From Cerasicoccus sp. TK19100 (GTDB taxonomy: Bacteria; Verrucomicrobiota; Verrucomicrobiia; Opitutales; Cerasicoccaceae), in assembly GCF_027257155.1 (NCBI RefSeq), contig NZ_JAPWDU010000005.1, positions 62,001 through 126,000 on the forward strand: DNA of 64,000 nucleotides, given 5' to 3'. The position numbers and the translations under genes are program-made. Every line of letters begins with the position of its first letter. Position 1 is the stretch's first letter. Under the pieces are notes generated by a model. It saw nothing but the letters and a program-made list of their open reading frames with translations. It was not told the origin of the DNA and made no database searches. Of the stretch, positions 495-63,804 are shown in pieces.

Positions 495-1379
495 ATGAAA
501 AGTACACTACCGGTTAACCCGCTCTTTACCAACAAGCTTGGCGCTCGCTTGTTGATCTCTGCATCACTGATACTTGGTGTCTCCTCGGCTGCCCATGCCG
601 ATACTTTGGCCTATGATGGATTTGGCGTTGGTGGCGATGGTTATACTGATGGCGCTGGAATCAGCGGTAACGGCAATGGCACGGGATGGGCAGGAGCCTG
701 GACCGGTGGCTCGCAGTATGCGACGGTCACCGGGAGTATCGCGCCCAGCTCGGTTGAGAGCGAGAACGGCATGGTTACCTTTGGCGATGGGACGTCCAGC
801 CAAGCTTTGGGACGCCAGTATAATGCTAGTTTCAGCGCCAGCGGCCTCACGGAAGGGTGGGCCAGTTGGACGGTTCAGCGAAATGGTTTGCGCGAGTTCC
901 GGCTAAATCCTTTTGCGACTAACACCACCGGTGCGGGTCAGTTTATGGGGATCCACGCGGAAAATTTCAGCACTACGTTGGTGGCGAACATCCGTTTCGG
1001 CTCGGCAGCAGACATCGCTGTAGGCACCTCGTTTGAAATGGCCGAAGACACCAGCTATTTCATGGTGGCGCAGGCGCTGCTGAACTCCAGCGGCACGCCC
1101 GATACCTTCAATGTCTGGATTTTTGAATCGAGCAGTTACACGGGTGCCGCGCTCGGGACACCGACGATTTCGGTTTCGCACGACTCCGACCACACTTTTA
1201 ACTCTTGGTCGATGACTGACCAGAACCCGCAAGGAAACACCGCGAATGTCATTTATGACGAGTTCCGCCTCGGTGAATCTTTTGCAGACGTGTCTGGCGT
1301 TGTGCCCGAGCCCTCGACTTACGCGCTTTTGGCCGGTGTGGCTTGTGTCGGCGTAGCCTTTTTGCGTCGCCGCAAGTAA
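495..1379 (+). CDS. PEP-CTERM sorting domain protein
   Basis: Secreted protein of 294 residues. It has an N-terminal signal peptide (basic start, hydrophobic LLISASLILGVSS, then AHA cleavage region). It ends in a PEP-CTERM tail: VPEPSTYALL, a hydrophobic segment (AGVACVGVAFL) and the basic cluster RRRK. Such tails are processed by exosortase/archaeosortase-like enzymes and anchor proteins at the surface or in extracellular matrix. The body is Gly/Ser/Thr-rich and probably a beta-sandwich; no enzyme motif is seen. The ATG at 495 is chosen over an upstream TTG (456) because the signal peptide begins there. No exosortase gene lies in the window. Confidence 0.85.
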   Translation: MKSTLPVNPLFTNKLGARLLISASLILGVSSAAHADTLAYDGFGVGGDGYTDGAGISGNGNGTGWAGAWTGGSQYATVTGSIAPSSVESENGMVTFGDGTSSQALGRQYNASFSASGLTEGWASWTVQRNGLREFRLNPFATNTTGAGQFMGIHAENFSTTLVANIRFGSAADIAVGTSFEMAEDTSYFMVAQALLNSSGTPDTFNVWIFESSSYTGAALGTPTISVSHDSDHTFNSWSMTDQNPQGNTANVIYDEFRLGESFADVSGVVPEPSTYALLAGVACVGVAFLRRRK

Positions 1380-1394
1380 GTCTAGCGACCGGGT

Positions 1395-2132
1395 TTAATA
1401 ATACACGCGCTCCAGCCACAGCCCTTTAGACGGGGCGGTGGCGACGCGGTTTGTGCGCTCGCGGCTTTCTAAAATCGTGCGAACTTCAGCTGGAGTGAGC
1501 TTGCCTAAGCCAACCTCTACCAATGTGCCCGCCAAGCTGCGGACCATCTTGTAGAGGTAGCCACTGGCCTCGGTGACGAGGGTCAGTGTGGGGCCTTCAC
1601 GATGGACCTCCAGCGTGCGCATGTCCTTGATGGGGTTGTCCTCGGAGCCGTCGCCGCGGTTGGCACCGAAGGCGGTGAAATCATGCTGCCCAAGGAGCTG
1701 CGCGGCAGCGGTGTTCATCGCAGATTCGTCTAGACGGCGTCGGCCGAGCTCCCAGCAATAGCGAGCATCCCATGGGCGCGCCCAGCCTTCATAAAATCGG
1801 TAGGCATAGCGCTTACCAGTTGCGGAGAATCGGGCGTGAAAATCGTCCGCCGCCGGTTCAACTTGATAGACCTGAATGCCGGCCGGCAGACCGCTGCGGA
1901 AGGCGCGTTCGAGCTTGTCCGCGCCGTGTTCCCAGTCGGCTTTGAAATTGAACGTCTGCGCTTTGGCGTGGACCCCGGCATCGGTGCGACCGCTGCCATG
2001 GATACGCAGCGGCGTTTTAAAAATTTGCTCCAGCCGCGCTTCTATGAAGTCCTGCACGGTGTTGCCGCCGGGCTGGCTTTGCCAACCGTTCAGGCCGTTG
2101 CCATCGTAGGCGCAGGTGCACTTCCAATTCAT
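1395..2132 (-). CDS. truA: tRNA pseudouridine synthase A
   Basis: Converts U38-U40 in the tRNA anticodon stem-loop to pseudouridine. The protein is 245 residues, normal for TruA. It carries the catalytic-aspartate block GRTDAGVHAKAQ, the N-terminal YDG..GWQ.QP..NTVQ motif and the C-terminal 'FLY.MVR..AG' equivalent (GYLYKMVRSLAGTL). The ATG at 2132 is chosen because it starts directly at MNWKCTCAYDG. The frame is open upstream, but that part overlaps mrdA and is not TruA-like. It lies 4 bases after mrdA, so the two are probably co-transcribed. No Shine-Dalgarno (SD) sequence is obvious. Confidence 0.95.
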   Translation of the reverse strand: MNWKCTCAYDGNGLNGWQSQPGGNTVQDFIEARLEQIFKTPLRIHGSGRTDAGVHAKAQTFNFKADWEHGADKLERAFRSGLPAGIQVYQVEPAADDFHARFSATGKRYAYRFYEGWARPWDARYCWELGRRRLDESAMNTAAAQLLGQHDFTAFGANRGDGSEDNPIKDMRTLEVHREGPTLTLVTEASGYLYKMVRSLAGTLVEVGLGKLTPAEVRTILESRERTNRVATAPSKGLWLERVYY

Positions 2133-2136
2133 CGGG

Positions 2137-4065
2137 TTAGGGCTGCATGGAGAGCAGTTCCTCGGCGGCGCGTTCCTGGAAAAACTCCTTGAAGACAGCG
2201 CGGGCGACGGGGGCTGCGGTGGCACCGCCTGCATAGCGGTCGCCAGGCGTGAGTCCTTCCACGATGACGGCAATTGCAATCTGCGGCTTATCCACCGGGG
2301 CGAACCCGGCAAACCAAGCGAGCGTCAATTTGCCAGACGGGCGTTTTACCTGCGCGGTGCCGGTTTTTCCTGCGATGCGGACGCCGTCAATCATGGCATA
2401 TCGGCCAGTGCCCTGTGGGCCCACTACGCGCTCCATGCCTTCGAGAATGGCCTGGTATTGGTAATCGGTTAAGCCGATGGGCTCGCCACCATGATCTATG
2501 ATTTCTCCGGTGTCGCGTCTGAGCAGGGTGAGGTCCGTGCGTGTTTCGCGACGGGCGAAAGAGGCCATAAACGAGGCCACATGCAGTGGCGTCATGAGCA
2601 GGTCGCCCTGGCCGATGGCGACGTTGGCGGTGTCACCCGCACGCCAGCCAAAGCCACGTACCTCGCGCGACCACTCCATATCGGGGACGATCATGCGGGT
2701 CTGCTGGAAGGGCAGCTCGATGTCGAGTGGCTCGTCCATACCAAAGCGCCGGGCCTCGTTAGCAATATTTTCAATGCCGGTGCGGATGCCCATGTCGTAG
2801 TAATAGACGTTGGAGCTCTTCTCGATGGCTTTGCGGACGTCGGTATCGTAATACGGGCCGCCGGAGTGCTCCGGGAACAATCGATTACCAACGCGGAAAT
2901 GGGAACCGCCTTGCACCTGCTCGTCCGGATTTATGGCACCGGAGCGCATGCCTGCGATCGTGGTAAGCAGCTTAAAAGTCGAGCCGGGCGGGTAGAGGCC
3001 TTTTGCCGCGCGGTTGACCCAGGCACCTTTCTCGTTGATCTCGTTAACGGTCTCCTGGGTGAGGCGGGGGCTGAAGTCGTTGAGGTCGTAGCCGGGGCTG
3101 CTGGCCAGCACGAGGATTTCGCCGGTTTCCACCATGATGGCGGCCACGGCACCGGTCCGGTCGCCCAGGGCGCGCTCAGCGGCAAGTTGAAGATCGATGT
3201 CGAGGCTGGTGTGGACATGGCCTCCCTGCTTGGCGTTTTGCTGGAAAATGGGCTCGCCGAACTGGTATTGGAATTTGTCGACGAGGTAAATTTCGCCACC
3301 GGACTCACCTTGCAGGATATCGTCAAACTGCTTTTCCAGACCGTTGATGCCGACTTCTCCCTTGTAAGTGTAGGTGCGCAGTTCATCACCCGGGATGCCT
3401 TCTGGAGGTACTATCCAACTTCCGCGCACGTAGCCCAGAGTATGTGCTGCCGCGGAGCCGTTTGGGTAGTCGCGGGCGGTGTCGGTGTAGATCCCGATTT
3501 TTGAGCCCAGCGGAAGCTGTTCGATGAGACGCGCGTAGTCCTCGCGAGGTAGGTCGCTAACGAGCTCAAACGGCATTAGCTGGCGTTCCACGAAGTGCCG
3601 GCGGAAATAGCGCTTATCGATCTGGTGGTCTGTTCCCAGGATATCATTAATCTCGGAGAGATAGCGCTGGATGACATTTTCCCGCGCTTGCCAGGAGGTT
3701 TCTTTCCAGTCGAAGGCAAATTTCTCTTCCGGGTTTTCGGCCTCATGCTGTGCCTGAAGCTCGCGCTTGATGTTGATGTATTCTTCCTGGATTTCGCTGC
3801 GGAGCTCTTCCAGGTAGACGACGGCTGAGAAGCGCGGCCGGTTGCCAACGAGCAGTTTGCCCGAGTAGTCGTAAATATTGCCGCGTGGTCCGGGCTGAAT
3901 AATGCGCCGCTGGCTCTGACGTTGCTCACGCTCACGGTATTCCTGGTGCATCAACAACTGTCGCCACGCCAAGCCCGACGCCAATACGGCAAAGAGCAGG
4001 GCGGCGACTACATAAAACACCCCCATTCGGGGATTACCATGCCGATAATGATGGACAACGTTCAC
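2137..4065 (-). CDS. mrdA: Penicillin-binding protein 2 (class B peptidoglycan transpeptidase)
   Basis: Elongasome transpeptidase that cross-links peptidoglycan in lateral wall growth. The 642-residue protein has a short cytoplasmic start, one membrane anchor (about residues 14-33), a PBP dimerisation/pedestal domain, then the transpeptidase domain. All three active-site motifs are visible: STFK (in YPPGSTFKLL), SSN (in KSSNVYYYD) and KTG (in AGKTGTAQV). The N-terminal motif PRGNIYDYSGKLL is typical of PBP2 ('RG.I.DRNG..L'). The usual partners rodA and mreCD are not adjacent, and truA follows instead. Assignment to PBP2 rather than FtsI rests on overall layout. Confidence 0.92.
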   Translation of the reverse strand: MNVVHHYRHGNPRMGVFYVVAALLFAVLASGLAWRQLLMHQEYREREQRQSQRRIIQPGPRGNIYDYSGKLLVGNRPRFSAVVYLEELRSEIQEEYINIKRELQAQHEAENPEEKFAFDWKETSWQARENVIQRYLSEINDILGTDHQIDKRYFRRHFVERQLMPFELVSDLPREDYARLIEQLPLGSKIGIYTDTARDYPNGSAAAHTLGYVRGSWIVPPEGIPGDELRTYTYKGEVGINGLEKQFDDILQGESGGEIYLVDKFQYQFGEPIFQQNAKQGGHVHTSLDIDLQLAAERALGDRTGAVAAIMVETGEILVLASSPGYDLNDFSPRLTQETVNEINEKGAWVNRAAKGLYPPGSTFKLLTTIAGMRSGAINPDEQVQGGSHFRVGNRLFPEHSGGPYYDTDVRKAIEKSSNVYYYDMGIRTGIENIANEARRFGMDEPLDIELPFQQTRMIVPDMEWSREVRGFGWRAGDTANVAIGQGDLLMTPLHVASFMASFARRETRTDLTLLRRDTGEIIDHGGEPIGLTDYQYQAILEGMERVVGPQGTGRYAMIDGVRIAGKTGTAQVKRPSGKLTLAWFAGFAPVDKPQIAIAVIVEGLTPGDRYAGGATAAPVARAVFKEFFQERAAEELLSMQP

Positions 4066-54357: not shown

Positions 54358-56520
54358 ATGAATGCCACGGCTAAGCTCACTAACGGCCTGACGGTTTTTG
54401 ACAGGTATCGTTTAAAACGCCTCTTGGGACGAGGCGGAATGGGTGTGGTTTGGCTGGCGCACGACATTGAGCTGGAGAAAGATATTGCGCTCAAATTTCT
54501 CACCGAAAACCTGCTTTTCGACAGTGCGGCGATTAAAGACCTGAAGAAGGAAACCCGCCGTGGCATGGAGCTCGCGCACCCGAATATCATCCGGGTTTAC
54601 GGGTTTTTCTCCGGTGATGACCGTGCAGCGGTCGCCATGGAATACGTGGAGGGGAACAACCTCTCCACTCTGCGCGATACCCGGCATGGTAGCTATTTTG
54701 AAGTGGCAGAAATCGCCTCTTTGACGATGGAGCTTTGTTCGGCGCTTCATTATGCGCACTCGAATGCGGAGATCGTCCACCGCGACCTGAAGCCGGCCAA
54801 TTTGATGGTCGACCAAAAGAACCGCCTCAAGGTGGCGGACTTCGGCATTTCCTCGAGTCTGAATGACGCCCATACCCGGCTAACGGGCACGATGGGGCTG
54901 CGCGGCACCATGCTTTACATGGGCCCGCAGCAGCTCATGGGGCAGCGCCCTTGTATTTCCCACGATATTTACGGGCTGGGGGCGACGCTGTTTGATTTGC
55001 TCACGGGCAAACCGGTTTTCTACACGGGCGACATCAGCCTGCAAATTCGCGAGAGCATGCCGCCAAGTATTCAGGAGCGGCGCACCGAATTAGAAATCAT
55101 CGGTGAGGAAATCCCGCCAGCATGGGAGGACACTATCGCGGCCTGTCTGGCGAAGGACGCTGCCGATCGCCCCAGCTCGGCGGCGGAAGTCATTAATCGA
55201 CTTTGCCTGACTGAAGGGCTGGCCAACAGTGCCACGCCTTTTCCCATGCCGATGAGCGGGGCGTATTCGTCTGGGCCAGCGGCGCCGACGATCCGTGATG
55301 CGGGGGACTCGATTGAACTTAGTGGCCGTAATTACCGCCACCCGCCGACAGCGCAAACAACGGTAAAAGAGCCAACGGATTCCGCAAACACTCAGCAGCC
55401 GGTCACGATCCAGCAGCGGCAGTCGCCATTGTCTGGGCTGGTTTTGGTGCTACTGGTGCTTTGCAGCGTGGCGGGTGGCGGCGCTATCGCCTATCTCGCG
55501 TTTCATCAGGGGAGTCATGAAGCCACGATTAAGGCTAATGCGTCACCCTTGGCCAACAACGCAAACCTGACCGCGGGCCCAGGGCCATCAGGTTTGAATG
55601 CGCGGCCGACGCCGGGTGGACAGTATCCCGGTCCGCCCAACTTTGACACCATGGGTGAGGGTCCGCCATCCCCCAACTTTGGCCCCGGCCAGACGATTAA
55701 CACCGGTATGCATCGTGGTGTGCCTGAGGGCATTATTTCCACGGGTATTACCAATCGCGCGGGGCCGGATATCGTAGAGGCCCCACGCCGCGGTTATGAT
55801 TTCAAATTGCAGAATACCGGCATGGTGTTTCGCTGGGCACCGCCATTTCGTTTTCAGATTGGATCACCTGCGCATCGTGTAGGGGATTCCGTGAATGACA
55901 GCTCCACGCTGGTCGACTTCACCCAAGGGTTCTGGATCTGCCAGCATGAGGTGACGCAGCATGAATATGAAAAATTCATGGGCATGAACCCCAGCGAAAA
56001 CGTCCATGGCAAGCACCCCGTGGAAAATGTTTCCTGGAGCGAGGCTATGGCGTTTTGCGCGAAATTGAACGAGGTTTATGCGAGCCAAATTCCGGAGGGC
56101 TATACGTTTTCCCTGCCGACTCAGGCTCAGTTCGAATACGCATCCCTTGGTGCCGTGAATGGCTACTACGGACAGCAGGGCAGATTTGAAAGATTTGCTT
56201 GGAACTCCGTTAATTCTGAGATGCGCTCGCATCCGGTGGGCGAACTGGAGCCGAACGAGTTTCAGTTATATGACACCGTGGGCAATGTTTCCGAGTGGAC
56301 GCTGGACTGGTATGGCCCGTTGCCTGGGGGCGAGGTTAAAGACTTTGCTGGCCCGGAAACCGGCGAGGCCAAAGTCGTCCGTGGTGGAAATTATACGCAG
56401 GGTGGTTCCGACTTACGTGTGAGTGTTCGCGAAAGTTACCCACCGGAAACAAAGGACCCGCGCATCGGCTTTCGCGTTGCACTGATACCGATTACTTTCC
56501 ACAATTCGCCCGAAAATTAA
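54358..56520 (+). CDS. Membrane Ser/Thr protein kinase with C-terminal FGE-sulfatase-like domain
   Basis: 720 residues. The N-terminal Hanks-type kinase (about 16-285) has the G-loop LLGRGGMGVV, K46 in IALKFL, HRDLKPANLM (D143) and ADFGISS (DFG 161-163). A Gln/Pro-rich linker and one membrane helix (LVLVLLVLCSVAGGGAIAYLAF) follow. The outer part is Gly/Pro-rich and then a SUMF1/FGE-like domain (GFWICQHEVTQHEYEKFMG, HPVENVSWSEAMAFC, LYDTVGNVSEWTLDW, VVRGGNYTQGG). The two catalytic cysteines of true FGE are absent near RGG, so this domain is likely a sensor or binder. An FHA protein follows 10 bases later. Confidence 0.93.
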   Translation: MNATAKLTNGLTVFDRYRLKRLLGRGGMGVVWLAHDIELEKDIALKFLTENLLFDSAAIKDLKKETRRGMELAHPNIIRVYGFFSGDDRAAVAMEYVEGNNLSTLRDTRHGSYFEVAEIASLTMELCSALHYAHSNAEIVHRDLKPANLMVDQKNRLKVADFGISSSLNDAHTRLTGTMGLRGTMLYMGPQQLMGQRPCISHDIYGLGATLFDLLTGKPVFYTGDISLQIRESMPPSIQERRTELEIIGEEIPPAWEDTIAACLAKDAADRPSSAAEVINRLCLTEGLANSATPFPMPMSGAYSSGPAAPTIRDAGDSIELSGRNYRHPPTAQTTVKEPTDSANTQQPVTIQQRQSPLSGLVLVLLVLCSVAGGGAIAYLAFHQGSHEATIKANASPLANNANLTAGPGPSGLNARPTPGGQYPGPPNFDTMGEGPPSPNFGPGQTINTGMHRGVPEGIISTGITNRAGPDIVEAPRRGYDFKLQNTGMVFRWAPPFRFQIGSPAHRVGDSVNDSSTLVDFTQGFWICQHEVTQHEYEKFMGMNPSENVHGKHPVENVSWSEAMAFCAKLNEVYASQIPEGYTFSLPTQAQFEYASLGAVNGYYGQQGRFERFAWNSVNSEMRSHPVGELEPNEFQLYDTVGNVSEWTLDWYGPLPGGEVKDFAGPETGEAKVVRGGNYTQGGSDLRVSVRESYPPETKDPRIGFRVALIPITFHNSPEN

Positions 56521-56530
56521 TTCCTGCACA

Positions 56531-56857
56531 ATGCCTGATAGCTTACACGATTCCACGACGATTGAACCCGGCCTTAAGGTGACCGTAGAAGGCAAGACCT
56601 ACCTGGCGCACCATGGCGACATTCTTGGTCGCGAAGGCACGGTGGCCAAAGACGTTTTTTACTTCATTAAGACGGTGTCCCGGATTCATGTGAAAATCTT
56701 GAAGCAGGAAGGCCATTGGTTCGTGGTTGTGCCCAAGGCCGTCAGCAACTCGACCAAACTTGATGGCGTGGAAGTGCCGCGCGACGAGCCCCAGAAAGTT
56801 CTGGGTACTCGTATTTTGAAGATGTCCGAAAACTGCGTCGTTACGCTGGAAGCGTAG
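56531..56857 (+). CDS. FHA-domain-like protein
   Basis: 108 residues, single domain. The FHA pattern is visible: ILGREG early (GR motif), VSRIHVKI (the S-R-x-H phosphothreonine-binding block), and VSNSTKLDGVEV (the N-x-x-x-x-N/G turn). FHA domains bind phosphothreonine; a partner kinase is encoded directly upstream on the same strand, so this is a probable readout or scaffold for its targets. The domain is close to minimal length. Confidence 0.8.
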   Translation: MPDSLHDSTTIEPGLKVTVEGKTYLAHHGDILGREGTVAKDVFYFIKTVSRIHVKILKQEGHWFVVVPKAVSNSTKLDGVEVPRDEPQKVLGTRILKMSENCVVTLEA

Positions 56858-56886: not shown

Positions 56887-57981
56887 CTAATAGCGTGCGA
56901 CCAGCTCTGCTTCGTAGGCTTGCCCATCCAGTGGCAGGACGACCGGCTGGCTCTTGAAGGTGGAGTAAAGCATCGCATTGGCGAGCTCCACCGAGTGGAT
57001 GCCTTCCGCGGCTGGCGCAATGAGCGGCTCGCCGTGGAGAATCGCATTGGCGAAATTGGTGAGGATGGCGACATGGCCGTTTGCACCGGCCTGATGCGGT
57101 ATATCGATGTGCCATTTTTCCGGGCGATCAAAGCCGTGAGTGGACTGGCGCAAGTGCTCGGAGACGAGTTTCTCGGTTCGGGTGAACTGAAACTTCTCGC
57201 CCTCAATGATGATCAGCCCGCGATCGCAGGCCACTTCGAGTCGGTTGACTCCGGGAGCCTCTCCCGTGCTGGTGACAAAGACACCGGTGGCCCCGTTGGC
57301 GAACTCCAGCATCGCAGTCACGTCGTCTTCCACCTCAATGTCATGATGGCGGCCAAACTGGCAGATGGCGGTGAGCTTTTTCGGCATGCCAAACAGCCAT
57401 TGTAGCAAGTCCAGGTTGTGCGGGCATTGGTTGAGCAGCACGCCGCCGCCTTCGCCTTTCCAAGTGGCGCGCCAGCTACCCATGCGGTAGTAGGTGTCGG
57501 TGCGGTACCAGTCGGTGATGGTCCAGTTGACGCGTTGTATCTCGCCCAGCTGACCACTTTGGATCAGCTCGCGCAGCTTTCGGTAGTGTGGCGTGCAGCG
57601 TTGGTTGAAGACCGCGCCAAAGACCAGATCAGGGTTGGTGTGGGCGCGGATCAGTTTCTCGCAATCGGCCTTGTGGACTGAAATAGGCTTCTCCACCAGC
57701 ACGTGCAAATTGCGCTCGAGCGCCGCAATTCCCAGGGGAGTGTGGCTGAAGTGCGGCGTCGCGATAAGCACCGCTTCCACCTGGCCGGAGTCCATCATTG
57801 TGGTGGAATCAGTGAACTTCGCCACCGATTCCGAAAATACGCTGAGGCGGGCCTCATCCGCGTCGGCAATGGCGGCCAGCGTCAGGCCGGACGCTCGTCC
57901 TTCGAGGATGTTTCTGGCGTGAATGTTGCCCATCGTGCCAAGGCCGATGATGCCGAGTCGAACTGTCTTTTCTGTGCTCAT
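56887..57981 (-). CDS. Gfo/Idh/MocA family oxidoreductase
   Basis: 364 residues. Rossmann motif LGIIGLGTMGNIHARN (GxGxxG), AIADADEARL, the EKP block HVLVEKPISVHKADC, and the C-terminal catalytic region GGGVLLNQCPHNLDLLQWLFG with its histidine (D-x-x-x-H equivalent CPHNLD). It is an NAD(P)-dependent sugar dehydrogenase of unknown substrate. Its start touches the stop of the upstream truncated beta-mannosidase gene, so it is probably in the same transcript. Confidence 0.92.
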   Translation of the reverse strand: MSTEKTVRLGIIGLGTMGNIHARNILEGRASGLTLAAIADADEARLSVFSESVAKFTDSTTMMDSGQVEAVLIATPHFSHTPLGIAALERNLHVLVEKPISVHKADCEKLIRAHTNPDLVFGAVFNQRCTPHYRKLRELIQSGQLGEIQRVNWTITDWYRTDTYYRMGSWRATWKGEGGGVLLNQCPHNLDLLQWLFGMPKKLTAICQFGRHHDIEVEDDVTAMLEFANGATGVFVTSTGEAPGVNRLEVACDRGLIIIEGEKFQFTRTEKLVSEHLRQSTHGFDRPEKWHIDIPHQAGANGHVAILTNFANAILHGEPLIAPAAEGIHSVELANAMLYSTFKSQPVVLPLDGQAYEAELVARY

Positions 57982-58773
57982 TTAGTCGAGATAACTTTCG
58001 CGGTAAGAGTAAACGGTCAGCCTCTTTCGTACTTCGGCGACAGAGATATTGTCAAACAGTCGCAGGGTGACGTTTTTTTCTTCGCCAGGGAAGAGGTCGA
58101 AGAAGTTGTCGCTCAAGCGATGCGGAATCGCGCCGTCGAGATTCAGGTAGACGCGGTAGGCGATTTTATCCGTGGATAATGTGATGGCGAACGCACCGTC
58201 GCTGGCTTTGGCTACCTTGGTTTTTATTTTCGGTAACTGGAATTCCAGACGCTTGGGTCCGGTCAGGCAGGTGGTGTTAACGCTGTCTTCGTAACCCTCC
58301 GCGGTGAGGCGCGTGCGGATGATCAAGTCATCGAAACTGTGGGATTCAACTTGCTTGGCCAGGTCGAGCTTTTTGCCAGAAATGGGTTTGCCGGGGGTGA
58401 GCTTGACGGCCTTGGATTCCTCCAGCAGCAATTTGTTTTCGGCGACTGACCAGACCTGCCAGGAGAGTTCTCCGGAAGCGGCTTTGACGCCGTCGAATAC
58501 CGTGTAAATATCCACGGCGCTCACGTGCTGGGCGGCCAGATCAGCCTCGGTTAACGTAATGCTCGTGCGATATTGCCAGTCCGTCTGTTCGACCCAGAGC
58601 AGGTCATGCTCGTTGCGACGGCAAAAGGGATCAGGGATTAACCCATGGCTGAGCAAATCGGTATGTACGCAACCCGGGACGGTCGCCTGGAGCGATGTTT
58701 TTTCGCCAGCCTGGCGGAATTCCCAGTTCTGGTTTAAACAGTGGTTTGGTGTCAGGGTGGGGGGCGATGACAT
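57982..58773 (-). pseudogene. Internally deleted GH2 beta-mannosidase (catalytic domain missing)
   Basis: 263 codons in one open frame. Residues 12-80 are the N-terminal sugar-binding domain of GH2 beta-mannosidases (LNQNWEFRQ, VPGCVHTDLLSHGLIPDPF, EHDLLWVEQTDWQYRT). From about residue 86 the sequence jumps to the late Ig-like domains (VDIYTVFDGVKAASGELSWQVW ... LTPGKPISG) and ends with LRLFDNISV. Roughly 500 residues containing the TIM barrel and both catalytic glutamates are absent, with the frame kept. It would encode a carbohydrate-binding shell with no hydrolase activity. Junction near base 58520. An assembly or cloning error is the other explanation. Confidence 0.75.
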
Positions 58774-58827: not shown

Positions 58828-59490
58828 TTAGAAGGGGTGAAACATTTTGAGTGTCACCTCATCAATGGTCAGGCCCTCCACGTGGCCGTCGGCAAAAAGA
58901 ATGTTTGCGGTGTTGTTGGCCTCGCGAAATCCAAGCGTGTCAACCGGTCGGGTTGCTTCGTCGGGGTGGGCCAGTGTGGTGCCACCACTACCTTTGCCTC
59001 CGAAACCCCAGTTTTCATTGATGCCAACATCGCCAAGCATGACCGTGTCGGTTGGGTTTATCAGCTTGTTATGATACCAATATTGCTGATCCCATCTGGT
59101 CACCAGGTTTTTGTTCATTGCATAGCAGACCGTGCCTTCCCCAGCAAGGCAGTCGGTATTTGGGCAAACCATCATGTTATAAGTTTCGTCCTTTGTGATG
59201 TAGCCATTATTTACCAAGCTAGCTGTCCAGGGCAGGTTGTCGTCCAACTCTTCACTCGCTTGTTTGGGCAACCATGGGTTTGGCATGCGGAAATCATTTT
59301 CCTGCGCATAAACCTGGAGTAAGCTTCCCCAGTTGCGAAGTGTTGATTGGCACTCACTGGTTTTGGCGGCATGTCGGACTTTGCCGACTGCGGGTATGAG
59401 GATCGTGGCCAAAATGGCGACGATGGCGATAACTGTCAGGAGTTCTACCAAGGTAAAACCCTGTCGGGGGGTACGATAGGGGAGTTTCAT
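58828..59490 (-). CDS. Prepilin-type N-terminal cleavage/methylation protein (pseudopilin)
   Basis: 220 residues. The prepilin peptidase site is RQGFTLVELL followed by the hydrophobic helix TVIAIVAILATILIPAV. The C-terminal block NILFADGHVEGL is the 'DGH' signature of the large DUF1559-like and pseudopilin families in Planctomycetes and Verrucomicrobia. Other secretion genes are not nearby, so it is a solitary pseudopilin, probably of a type II-like system. Confidence 0.9.
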   Translation of the reverse strand: MKLPYRTPRQGFTLVELLTVIAIVAILATILIPAVGKVRHAAKTSECQSTLRNWGSLLQVYAQENDFRMPNPWLPKQASEELDDNLPWTASLVNNGYITKDETYNMMVCPNTDCLAGEGTVCYAMNKNLVTRWDQQYWYHNKLINPTDTVMLGDVGINENWGFGGKGSGGTTLAHPDEATRPVDTLGFREANNTANILFADGHVEGLTIDEVTLKMFHPF

Positions 59491-59636: not shown

Positions 59637-60674
59637 TTAGCTCAAAATGGAATCGATTTTCGCCAATTCTTCGTCGCTCAGAGGGCCTGCGTCCAGTGCT
59701 TTGGCGCAGTCTGTAATCTGCTTGGGGCGGCTGGCACCGATCAAGACGCTGGTGGTTTCCGGGTGGCGAAGCACCCACGCTAACGCGAGTTGTGCGAGGG
59801 TTTGCCCGCGCTCGGAGGCGACTTCATTGAGGGCGCGGAGCTTCTGCTGGAGTTCGGGGGTGATGCGGTCGGCGTTCAGGAAAACGCTTTGGCTGCCGAT
59901 GCGGGAATCCTCCGGGATGTCCTGCAGGTACTTCCCAGTCAGAAGGCCACCTGCAAGCGGACTAAATATCATTGTGCCGACGCCATCAGCAGCGTTGGTT
60001 TTAAGTAATGCGTCGCGCCCCTCGCGATTGAGCATACTGTAGCTGAACTGGTGGATGATGGGCACCGTCCAGCCATTGCGGCGACAGGTTTCCACGACTT
60101 GCCGGGCATGCTCCGGCGCATAGTAGTTGGAAAAACCCGTGTAGAGTGCACGTCCGCTTTGGACGAGATAGTCGAGCGCGGCCAGGGTTTCCTCCAGCGG
60201 GGTCTCGTTATCCGGGCGGTGGTGATAAAAGATGTCCACATAATCAAGCTGCAGGCGCTTGAGTGACTGGTCGCAGGAGCTGATGATGTATTTGCGCGAA
60301 CCGCCGTCGCCATAGGGGCCATCCCACATGTGGTAGCCGGCCTTCGACGAGATGATGAGTTCGTCGCGGTGATTGGCAAAGTCCTCGCGGATAATTTTAC
60401 CGCAGCGTTCTTCGGCTGAGCCGGGGGGAGGGCCGTAGTTGTTGGCCAAGTCGAAGTGGGTGATGCCCAGATCGAAGGAGGTAAAAAGCATTTGTTGGCA
60501 ATTCGCGTGGATGGTCGCCTCGTCACCGCTGTGGAGGGAGTCGGTACCCGGCGCGCCGAAGTTGTGCCAGGCACCCATGCTGACCGCGGGTAGTTTCAAG
60601 CCGGAGTTGCCGCAGTAGCGAAACCAGTTGGCGGGGTTGTTCTTGTAGCGATTTTCAGAGGGGGAATACGACAT
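59637..60674 (-). CDS. Aldo/keto reductase (YghZ/Gpr type)
   Basis: 345 residues from the ATG at 60674. The AKR catalytic residues are visible: D and Y in HFDLANNYGPPPGSAEE, K in ISSKAGYHMWDGPYG and H in VDIFYHHRPD. The GSAEE and KAGYHMWDGPYG blocks are typical of the L-glyceraldehyde-3-phosphate reductase (YghZ) subgroup, which reduces small aldehydes with NADPH. It stands alone, next to sugar genes. Confidence 0.9.
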   Translation of the reverse strand: MSYSPSENRYKNNPANWFRYCGNSGLKLPAVSMGAWHNFGAPGTDSLHSGDEATIHANCQQMLFTSFDLGITHFDLANNYGPPPGSAEERCGKIIREDFANHRDELIISSKAGYHMWDGPYGDGGSRKYIISSCDQSLKRLQLDYVDIFYHHRPDNETPLEETLAALDYLVQSGRALYTGFSNYYAPEHARQVVETCRRNGWTVPIIHQFSYSMLNREGRDALLKTNAADGVGTMIFSPLAGGLLTGKYLQDIPEDSRIGSQSVFLNADRITPELQQKLRALNEVASERGQTLAQLALAWVLRHPETTSVLIGASRPKQITDCAKALDAGPLSDEELAKIDSILS

Positions 60675-61028
60675 ATGGCGCAAGAGTAAGCAGATGTTTT
60701 CGCTTTTGGCTACGCTTGAGCTTCAATTTTCTATCTTTTGTTGATGCTGACGTTTACACCCAGCACGATCAGCGGCGCTGGAAATGATGTTCGAAAAGGA
60801 ATCGAAACGGTGAAACTTTTTGCCAAAAATGCACCGGTTGCAGAATTATTGTAACTTGAAAATCTTGACTATCGATTCGTCTGACGGGTGAGTAAGTCAG
60901 CAAGTTGATGACCTCGATTTCGGTAAATTTATTAAACCATACTCTCTAACAAGTTATTAAACAAAGGATGCAATTTTTAGGTGGACAAGGTTAGTTCATT
61001 TACTCTCATTGGTGGTTTCCCCCGATCA
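60675..61028. other. AT-rich intergenic region of about 350 bases before the transporter operon
   Basis: No gene, strong hairpin or repeat is seen. It lies between divergent genes and probably holds both promoters. A TTGACT at 60865 is the best -35-like hexamer but has no good -10 at the right distance. Confidence 0.5.
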
Positions 61029-61946
61029 ATGAATCCCAATAACTCCAAGTTTAACTTTTATGGTAGGCTCGTGATCATAGAAGTGATTACGGCATTTACG
61101 CTCATCTTTAGCGGTTGTGACGCTCAAGATCGGTCGGGTGATGGAGAACTCTCAGCCTACGAAAAAGGCCTGGACGCGCTGGAGATGTTTGATTTCGGCG
61201 AGGCTTATGATCAGCTCTCCATCGCACAACCCGAGCTCTCGCCTTCGGATGAAAAATGGCTTGATGCGACATATGCCTACGCTTTGGCAAGCTGGCATCG
61301 CCCACCGCCTCGCGCTGAGACGATCGACCAAGCAGAAGGTTTGTTCAATGAGCTGCTGGCGGCAGATATTTCCGACGATTGGAAGACACGCGTTAAGCTT
61401 TCGCTGGCGCGTATCTATGAGGTGAATGATTACCCCGGCGATGTTGTTGACTTGGACAAGGCTCGCGCCCTTTACCGCGATGTAATGGAAACCCATCCCA
61501 CCGGGGAGTTCGGTTACCAGTCCTCGCTGCGATTGGCGCAGACTTACATCCAGCAACTGGATACGTCTTCTATTCTAGAAGGTATCAAAATCATCCAAGA
61601 GCAGATTGAGCGTGATCCGGACTCCAACTGGGCGAACATCGCCTATCAGTATTTGGGTGATACCTATTATTTTGGCATGGAAGATCCGAGCAAGGCGCTG
61701 GAGTATTATCTCATTGCGGAAGAACTCGGATTCTCCAATGACGCGTCGACGCACTTTTTCCTTTGGCGTATGGCCGAATGGGCTAATGAATTAGGGGAGG
61801 AGCGCGAAGCAGTCCGCCTGTGGACACGTATTGTTAACGAGTTTCCCCGCAGCCCGTATGGCACACTTTCACGCGATTATGTTCGCGCATACGTGAAAAA
61901 ACACCCGGATAGCGGTATTACTCCTCCTGAACTGCAGACCTGGTAG
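61029..61946 (+). CDS. TPR lipoprotein preceding a sugar ABC transporter
   Basis: 305 residues from the ATG at 61029; a GTG at 60981 is also possible. The lipobox is IFSGC with the acylated Cys at residue 30. The mature part has TPR-like helical pairs (FGEAYDQLSIAQPELSPSDEKWLDATYAYALAS..., NWANIAYQYLGDTYYFGMEDPSKALEYYLIAEELG, REAVRLWTRIVNEFPRSPYG). Its stop is 1 base before the substrate-binding protein gene, so it is almost certainly part of the same transport system, perhaps a scaffold at the membrane. Confidence 0.8.
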   Translation: MNPNNSKFNFYGRLVIIEVITAFTLIFSGCDAQDRSGDGELSAYEKGLDALEMFDFGEAYDQLSIAQPELSPSDEKWLDATYAYALASWHRPPPRAETIDQAEGLFNELLAADISDDWKTRVKLSLARIYEVNDYPGDVVDLDKARALYRDVMETHPTGEFGYQSSLRLAQTYIQQLDTSSILEGIKIIQEQIERDPDSNWANIAYQYLGDTYYFGMEDPSKALEYYLIAEELGFSNDASTHFFLWRMAEWANELGEEREAVRLWTRIVNEFPRSPYGTLSRDYVRAYVKKHPDSGITPPELQTW

Positions 61947-61947
61947 T

Positions 61948-63804
61948 ATGAGCAAAGACGATTCAGAGAGCAAAGGCTTTAACTGGAACTTGGTGGCGCT
62001 CGGCATTTTGCTGATTGCTTACCTTTTTAGTGCCGGCCGTTTCTTCATTTATAGCGCTACTCATAGTGATGATGGTGATAACAAAATCGTGCGCGTGGCG
62101 CATTGGCAGCTAGAGCCAGGTTATCGTGAGGCCCTTGAGTGGGCTATGAATGAATACAATAATCTTCCGCATGTTAAGGAAGCCGGGATCACAGTGACAC
62201 AAATGGCGCTGCCCACCCGGGTGTATCCCCAATTCATGAACGTGCACCTGATTAGTGGCACCGCGCCAGACATCGCAGCCGCAGGTATGTCCACCATCAT
62301 TGAGGGTAGCTCGATCGCGCGCTTTTATGCGTCGCTGGGTGAGTATGTGAAGGAGCCCAATCCTTACAATTCCCGTGAGTATACAGACCCAGAGATGGAA
62401 GAGGAATTGCGCGAATATCTGGCAGTTTCTCCATGGAAGGAAACCTTCCTCGATGGTATGGAAGGTGGCTGGAAAGGTGAGCTGAACGATTACTACTCGG
62501 TGCCGGTTAGTAGCTTCGGCAGCGTTCGCATGTTCTACAACACCAAGCTGGTTAATGAAGCGAAGGAATACATTCTCGCCAACATCGACAAGAAACCGCA
62601 GCCAGAGTGGTTGCAGCAGGTCTGGATCAATGATGTCGATGGCGAAGTGACTGGTTATTTGCCCGACAATGAGCGGTTGCGGACTTGGTTGGACAAGGCG
62701 GATGTTCCCCCCGAAACCTTGGGGCAGTTCATTCTCTTCTGCTTTGCGATTGAAGAAATGGCTATCGAGAAGGACCGTAGCACCCTCACGCCAATCTCGG
62801 TTGGTAACTATGCGATTGGTGACCCTATCTACCGCTATCAGATCAGCTTCTTCCGTCATCTGGGTAACAACCAGATCGAGCAAAATGGGTCGCCGGGCAT
62901 CAGTGGCTTGGAGGCAATGGATGCATTGCACCGTGGTGCCTGGACCTTCCAGGACGAGCCGATTATTGAGTTCGTCAAGCTGGCCAAGCTTTTTAGCAGT
63001 TTTTACCCCGCTGGGTATATGGGCCTCGACCGCGAGCAAGTGCAGCGTCGCTTCGTTTCCGGTGATGCCGCAGTCTTTGCATCTGGTGGCTGGGATGCCG
63101 CTGGCGTTTACAAAGGCTCACAGGAAAGTGAGGACCCCAGCAAGCGCTTCCAGGTGCAGATCAAGCCAGTTCCCACGCCCGCGCCCGATGAGCGTTGGGC
63201 TGATATGCTATACTACCTGCCATCGGAGGCTAACTTTAAGGCCGGCGTACCCTTGGCGGTGAATAAGCAGTCGCGGAATTTTGATTGGTCCCTGGACTTC
63301 CTCAAGTTCCTCTCATCGCAGCCGATCAATGAGGAGTTCAACCGCCGCGCAGCTTGGCTGCCTGCTGCCCTTGGCGCGAAGCCGGTGGAATCTATGGTGG
63401 AGTTTTCTCCAATCATCGAGGGTTATCCGGGTGAAATGACCTTTAACCCCACCAATTCACGTGCCCCGATTCGCAGTAAGTGGCAGGGTGACTTTAAGCT
63501 CATGGTGACTGGTGAAATGTCTTACGAAGATTTCTCCAACGGATTCATGGAATTTTTGGAAAATCCATACCAGGGCATGCAAGGTTACTGGTATCAAGAT
63601 CGTCAAAATGCGAGAGATCGCACCCGTGCACTGGATCGCAACTTGTCGGTCGAAGAGTTTTTTGCGGCGAAGGATCATGATTCCAAAGTGGCTAACCGCT
63701 TCCAGTCTTTGTTCTATCAGAGCCTGGGTAGCGATGAAGGCGTAATGCTTGATTTGATCTGGAGCCGACTTCACCCGGGCGAACCTTTCCCGGATATTGA
63801 TTAA
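61948..63804 (+). CDS. ABC transporter substrate-binding protein with N-terminal membrane anchor
   Basis: 618 residues, longer than most family 1 solute-binding proteins. Residues ~13-35 are a hydrophobic helix (WNLVALGILLIAYLFSAGRFFI) with no lipobox or clear cleavage site, so the protein is likely anchored. The periplasmic body has the family 1 pattern (VRVAHWQLEPGYREALEWAMNEYN, SGTAPDIAAAG, FGSVRMFYNTKLVNEA). It probably binds an oligosaccharide. It starts 1 base after the TPR lipoprotein and is followed by a permease. Confidence 0.88.
   Translation: MSKDDSESKGFNWNLVALGILLIAYLFSAGRFFIYSATHSDDGDNKIVRVAHWQLEPGYREALEWAMNEYNNLPHVKEAGITVTQMALPTRVYPQFMNVHLISGTAPDIAAAGMSTIIEGSSIARFYASLGEYVKEPNPYNSREYTDPEMEEELREYLAVSPWKETFLDGMEGGWKGELNDYYSVPVSSFGSVRMFYNTKLVNEAKEYILANIDKKPQPEWLQQVWINDVDGEVTGYLPDNERLRTWLDKADVPPETLGQFILFCFAIEEMAIEKDRSTLTPISVGNYAIGDPIYRYQISFFRHLGNNQIEQNGSPGISGLEAMDALHRGAWTFQDEPIIEFVKLAKLFSSFYPAGYMGLDREQVQRRFVSGDAAVFASGGWDAAGVYKGSQESEDPSKRFQVQIKPVPTPAPDERWADMLYYLPSEANFKAGVPLAVNKQSRNFDWSLDFLKFLSSQPINEEFNRRAAWLPAALGAKPVESMVEFSPIIEGYPGEMTFNPTNSRAPIRSKWQGDFKLMVTGEMSYEDFSNGFMEFLENPYQGMQGYWYQDRQNARDRTRALDRNLSVEEFFAAKDHDSKVANRFQSLFYQSLGSDEGVMLDLIWSRLHPGEPFPDID

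Follow-up and report, generated by a model that had tools for sequence, protein, structure and literature searches.

A GH2 beta-mannosidase gene of Cerasicoccus sp. TK19100 has lost its catalytic middle in frame, probably through a young, lineage-specific deletion

We analyzed a 64,000-nucleotide stretch of the genome of Cerasicoccus sp. TK19100 (contig NZ_JAPWDU010000005.1, positions 62,001 to 126,000; hereafter the window) against a same-genus comparison set consisting of C. frondis (L033), C. maritimus (L034), and genome G002 (L067). An open reading frame at 57982-58773 on the minus strand begins with ATG, encodes 263 amino acids, and contains 0 internal stops. It lies among the following features, all on the minus strand:

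56887-57981, minus strand: Gfo/Idh/MocA oxidoreductase gene, its ATG directly after the remnant stop; same order in the 3 relatives
57982-58773, minus strand: GH2 beta-mannosidase remnant gene, 263 codons (834 codons in intact relatives)
57982-58527, minus strand: C-terminal piece of the remnant, about codons 83-263 plus the stop, with Mannosidase_ig (PF17786) and Ig_mannosidase (PF17753)
58522-58536, minus strand: putative deletion junction, about codons 80-84, where 571 codons (1,713 bp) of the relatives are absent
58528-58773, minus strand: N-terminal piece of the remnant, about codons 1-82, matching the first 68 of 167 positions of PF22666 and colinear with the N-termini of the 3 relatives
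58828-59490, minus strand: prepilin-type N-methylation protein gene, between the aldo/keto reductase gene and the remnant, an arrangement not found in the 3 same-genus relatives
59637-60683, minus strand: aldo/keto reductase gene, immediately upstream of GH2 in the relatives

The adjacency to a Gfo/Idh/MocA gene that a preliminary description of this DNA had pointed out is as described: in the window the next ATG follows the GH2 stop immediately (0 bases), compared with spacers of 4, 1, and 4 bases in C. frondis, C. maritimus, and G002, respectively (start codon assumed). Because the remnant stop directly abuts the Gfo/Idh ATG, continued expression of the remnant, which the same description had raised, is plausible. 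Scans for promoters and terminators returned 4 and 5 candidates against shuffled expectations of 2.4 and 5.4, respectively, both close to expectation. In the 3 relatives, the gap from the aldo/keto reductase gene to GH2 is only about 90-270 bases. The prepilin-type protein has a weak H-X9-DG match (TIGR04294) below the cut-off, and the window genome has 25 matches to it. On the plus strand, 54358-56520 encodes a protein kinase whose C-terminal domain is of the FGE-sulfatase (SUMF1-like) type, and the small protein encoded next to it, at 56531-56857, matches FHA below the cut-off. Also on this strand, a TPR protein and a solute-binding protein (60981-63804) are encoded divergently from the GH2 row, in the same arrangement as in C. 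frondis and G002.

Searches with Pfam-A identified Glyco_hydro_2_N2 (PF22666) at residues 17-84 of the remnant (profile positions 1-68 of 167, E-value 5e-20), Mannosidase_ig (PF17786) at residues 86-162 (E-value 2e-4, with 22.2 bits just below the 23.4 cut-off), and Ig_mannosidase (PF17753) at residues 179-259 (profile positions 2-80 of 81, E-value 5.7e-18, 64.8 bits, above the cut-off). With Pfam E-values of 5e-20 and 6e-18, chance is excluded as an explanation for the matches at the 2 ends. The same Pfam searches matched neither a barrel model nor domain 2, the second N-terminal beta-sandwich, and a search of NCBIfam assigned no family to the remnant.

In 3 of the 3 other same-genus genomes searched, the same aldo/keto reductase and Gfo/Idh/MocA genes flank a GH2 gene encoding 834 aa, the full-length homologue in close relatives that the preliminary description had proposed looking for. 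The remnant aligns colinearly with the 3 intact copies at its two ends, and its sequence switches from likeness to their N-flank to likeness to their C-flank at about codons 80-84, which in plus-strand numbering lies close to the junction "near base 58520" given earlier. The length difference is 571 codons, so the missing part is larger than the earlier estimate of about 1.5 kb. In the intact copies, PF22666 matched over positions 1-167 of 167, PF00703 (domain 2) was present, and Mannosidase_ig started at residue 657, with the C breakpoint falling two or three residues before it. What the remnant lacks is the last 60% or so of the N-terminal domain, all of domain 2, and the whole barrel. The loss of the entire barrel from an otherwise open GH2 frame was correctly recognized in the preliminary description, but its extent was understated with respect to domain 2 and the N-terminal domain. 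The 10 genomes of the family Cerasicoccaceae gave 16 PF17753 matches; 15 of these fall in open frames of 825-887 aa, and the remaining one, that of the window, in a frame of just 281 aa.

The glutamates of the CGNNE and SEFG motifs, which we take to be the GH2 catalytic pair, are residues 422 and 510 in each of the 3 relatives, where they fall in the missing part, and neither motif is present in the remnant. The assignment agrees with titles of PDB entries for XacMan2A that give E477 and E575 as acid-base and nucleophile. Because both catalytic glutamates are gone, the remnant product is predicted to be unable to hydrolyse mannosides. PMC5145203 describes the barrel as common to all GH2 architectures and 2 N-terminal beta-sandwich domains as a further GH2 feature; the predicted product does not have the TIM barrel, the acid/base and nucleophile glutamates, and the 2 N-terminal beta-sandwich domains of a functional GH2 enzyme. 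The ancestral activity appears to be lost, as in a pseudogene. By descent, the remnant would still be a GH2 beta-mannosidase, as judged from its C-terminal Mannosidase_ig and Ig_mannosidase domains and from its synteny with the orthologues. In position, neighbors, and colinear ends, it is like the intact genes of C. frondis, C. maritimus, and G002, from which it differs in that those encode 834 aa with a complete N-terminal domain, domain 2, and barrel. Alignment with the structure of BtMan2A (2je8) placed remnant residues 13-83 on residues 13-83 and remnant residues 174-237 on residues 755-818; compared with this enzyme, XacMan2A (6byc), and related GH2 beta-mannosidases, the remnant has an incomplete N-terminal domain and is without domain 2, barrel, and catalytic residues.

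We examined whether the short form is a property of the genome or of its assembly. At the corresponding breakpoint positions, no direct repeat longer than 5 bp was found in the 3 relatives, nor did the two 90-bp breakpoint flanks share a common word longer than 5 bp in any of them. The short direct repeats anticipated in the preliminary description are thus missing from the relatives, and repeat-mediated deletion or collapse was rejected; this favors illegitimate recombination over an assembly collapse driven by repeats, with the proviso that the ancestral sequence of this lineage may differ. The junction lies within a contig of 567,657 bases in a 5.07-Mb assembly of 13 contigs with 97% completeness. 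When the missing part was sought in the assembly with the middle of the C. frondis protein, we recovered a paralogue (C5:341520-343220, 49% identity, in an 835-aa frame) and 1 weak match (E-value 4e-4, in a 612-aa frame), and relocation of the barrel elsewhere in the genome was rejected on these results. Together, these observations make it very unlikely that the true genome carries the full gene and that the assembly or its consensus is at fault, even though the short form was seen in 1 genome only, in the one assembly of the species analyzed. A 27-base pattern spanning the junction had no match in viral_contigs, which says little.

Replacement of the gene by an already shortened copy acquired horizontally, instead of a deletion in place, would fit some features of base composition: the GC3 of the remnant (0.678) is somewhat lower than that of its neighbors (0.728 and 0.742), and that of the adjoining prepilin-type gene, present here in this genome only, is lower still (0.593). 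The N-terminal piece is also 53-55% identical to its counterparts in the genus and 59% identical to a Saprospiraceae gene over residues 13-80. The best-scoring matches of both halves are, however, the same-genus orthologues (58-70% identity for the C-terminal part and 82-89 bits for the N-terminal part), synteny is retained, and no other in-frame barrel-less copy was recognized among the matches listed from 288 genomes of the phylum, 2 of which, in short frames, did not align with the C. frondis protein. We regard such a replacement as extremely improbable.

We compared the remnant with its intact counterparts for signs of constraint or decay. Identity of the N-terminal part to the 3 intact copies is 51-54%, against 49-54% among the intact copies themselves; for the C-terminal part, the values are 59-71% and 65-75%, respectively. 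The PF17753 score of the remnant is similar to those of the 3 orthologues (62.4-70 bits), and its 22.2 bits for PF17786 compare with 25.9, 26.4, and 35.5 bits in the orthologues and 34.5 bits in the paralogue. Leave-one-out profile scores placed the remnant among the better-conserved members, ranking from the worst 44th of 55 for the N-terminal part and 44th of 47 for the C-terminal part. Identical duplicates were removed from the alignment for these scores, as was any row that spanned <70% of the window's columns, and the scores replaced a conserved-site test (cut-offs 0.9 and 0.95) that had only 4-6 columns. In conserved columns, the remnant departs at residue 72, which is I (F in 52 and V in 2 of the 54 others), and at residue 86, already past the junction. 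The reading of DPFCRRNE in place of DPFYGxNE as a sign of decay was dropped, with positions 51 and 52 falling outside the columns at least 70% conserved in the wider alignment.

Rates of change in the C-terminal part depended on the outgroup. When G002 served as outgroup, the Tajima test counted 22 vs 10-11 unique changes (chi-square 3.7-4.5); with a more distant outgroup, the counts were 12-14 vs 10-11 (chi-square 0.2-0.4). The branch of the remnant is the longest of the 3 nearest sequences (0.286 vs 0.148 and 0.128), and the neighboring Gfo/Idh gene is also unequal in rate by the Tajima test, in C. maritimus. Synonymous divergence between the species by NG86 is 1.2-4.3, saturated and undefined in many pairs, with pairs involving the window at least 1.3 where defined; this comparison of identity and dS used an inner start for the C. 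frondis Gfo/Idh gene and an incomplete G002 kinase. A neutral sequence of the remnant's composition would have a 95% probability of containing a stop after about 0.11 substitutions per site, with transitions weighted four times a transversion. This is far below the separation of the species, so the remnant is either young relative to them or has had its frame kept. Overall, the remnant carries no clear mark of decay, which by these alignments is equally compatible with a recent deletion and with selection on the remnant.

Selection could have acted on a recruited non-catalytic protein composed of 2 Ig-like domains and an N-terminal extension, kept for binding a glycan or partner enzymes. The open frame and the presence and conservation of the C-terminal domains speak for this, as does the position of the C breakpoint just ahead of the start of the Mannosidase_ig profile. 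The AlphaFold2 model of the remnant, with a mean pLDDT of 87.7 and values of 78-94 over most of the N-terminal piece, points the same way; the high local pLDDT of that piece may, however, simply follow the alignment and is no proof of folding. Against recruitment, the pTM of the model is 0.66, and the N-terminal piece is modeled with only three short strands plus a few helices, also short. A Foldseek search with the model returned GH2 mannosidases as the best matches (query TM-score 0.31). The long branch and the outgroup-dependent Tajima result for the C-terminal part, and the occurrence in 1 genome only, also count against selection, and we consider recruitment unlikely.

The specific proposal of the preliminary description, a shell able to bind mannosides without cutting them, has a precedent in PMC9232400, which reports non-catalytic binding of galactomannan by BtMan2A, with docking that names residues 26-221. 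That paper also assigns two putative galactomannan pockets to GH2 mannosidases, one at the interface of domains 1, 2, and 3 and the other at that of domains 3 and 4. The remnant retains only the part matching up to about residue 83, so that, with the N-terminal domain cut at 68 of 167 profile positions, most of the equivalent of residues 26-221 is gone. Because this domain is truncated and domain 3, the barrel, which is part of both pockets proposed there, is missing, mannoside binding by the remnant appears poorly supported. A mannoside binder was accordingly set aside as the preferred reading and kept as a rival. That the barrel-less protein is a stable, expressed, and selected two-Ig-domain module with a non-enzymatic role, either in binding a glycan or partner or as a folding partner of the paralogue, seems to us quite unlikely; if true, it would be a bacterial pseudoenzyme that arose in a single step via a 1.7-kb in-frame deletion.

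The remnant is most likely a real, lineage-specific, and probably young deletion allele without enzymatic function. Under this reading, a 1,713-bp deletion in this Cerasicoccus lineage would have removed about codons 83-653 of an 834-codon GH2 gene, by illegitimate and not repeat-driven recombination. The paralogue recovered above is a second, full-length GH2 mannosidase gene in the window genome (C5, about 341.3-343.8 kb) that keeps both glutamate motifs and is 78% identical to a C. frondis gene, and its presence may be what made the remnant tolerable. C. maritimus has 1 Ig_mannosidase match only and, by that test, no second copy. By chance alone, one deletion in three would preserve the reading frame. 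The frame may also have been kept through coupling of the remnant stop to the Gfo/Idh start, as a deletion that preserved it would leave translation of the downstream Gfo/Idh gene undisturbed. We assign a probability of roughly three in four to this reading as a whole, comprising a real deletion by illegitimate recombination, a young and functionless remainder tolerated through the paralogue, and a frame perhaps kept by coupling.

Ig_mannosidase matches were identified in 99 of 288 genomes sampled from the phylum Verrucomicrobiota, and 7 of the 150 matches listed, including that of the window, lie in frames <700 aa. The other 6 short-frame loci were compared with the C. frondis protein. L087 and L088 contain the end of the barrel, and both loci are truncated by a contig end. 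L086 and L090 had no match to this protein. L085 (G291:C113:14000-18000) encodes at 720-3154 a GH2 mannosidase with a barrel and with its last domain in another frame, probably through a frameshift. In L089 (G248:C486:5500-9500), the N and C parts of a GH2 mannosidase at 2580-2955 lie about 50 bases apart in different frames, with no barrel, and this locus appears to be an out-of-frame counterpart of the window remnant. Judged by these comparisons, barrel loss was seen twice among the matches listed, and the in-frame case was recognized only in the window.

The locus provides a clean, polarized instance of in-frame loss of a catalytic domain within a gene row that has otherwise persisted, and it would allow the idea of loss through redundancy to be put to the test. 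Domain-level searches still recover GH2 domains from the ORF, but annotation should not list it among the GH2 mannosidases. A literature search for in-frame loss of the catalytic domain of a glycoside hydrolase, partly at the level of titles, returned nothing on point, and we do not claim that such cases are absent from print. Most likely, the remnant is a dead leftover and an ordinary case of gene decay. Bacterial pseudogenes formed by internal deletion are a known kind, and the remnant is like them in its lineage-specific loss of the catalytic part, in the full-length paralogue present in the same genome, and in the intact orthologues of its sister genomes; unlike them, it has kept its frame, and a 263-aa protein could still be made from it.
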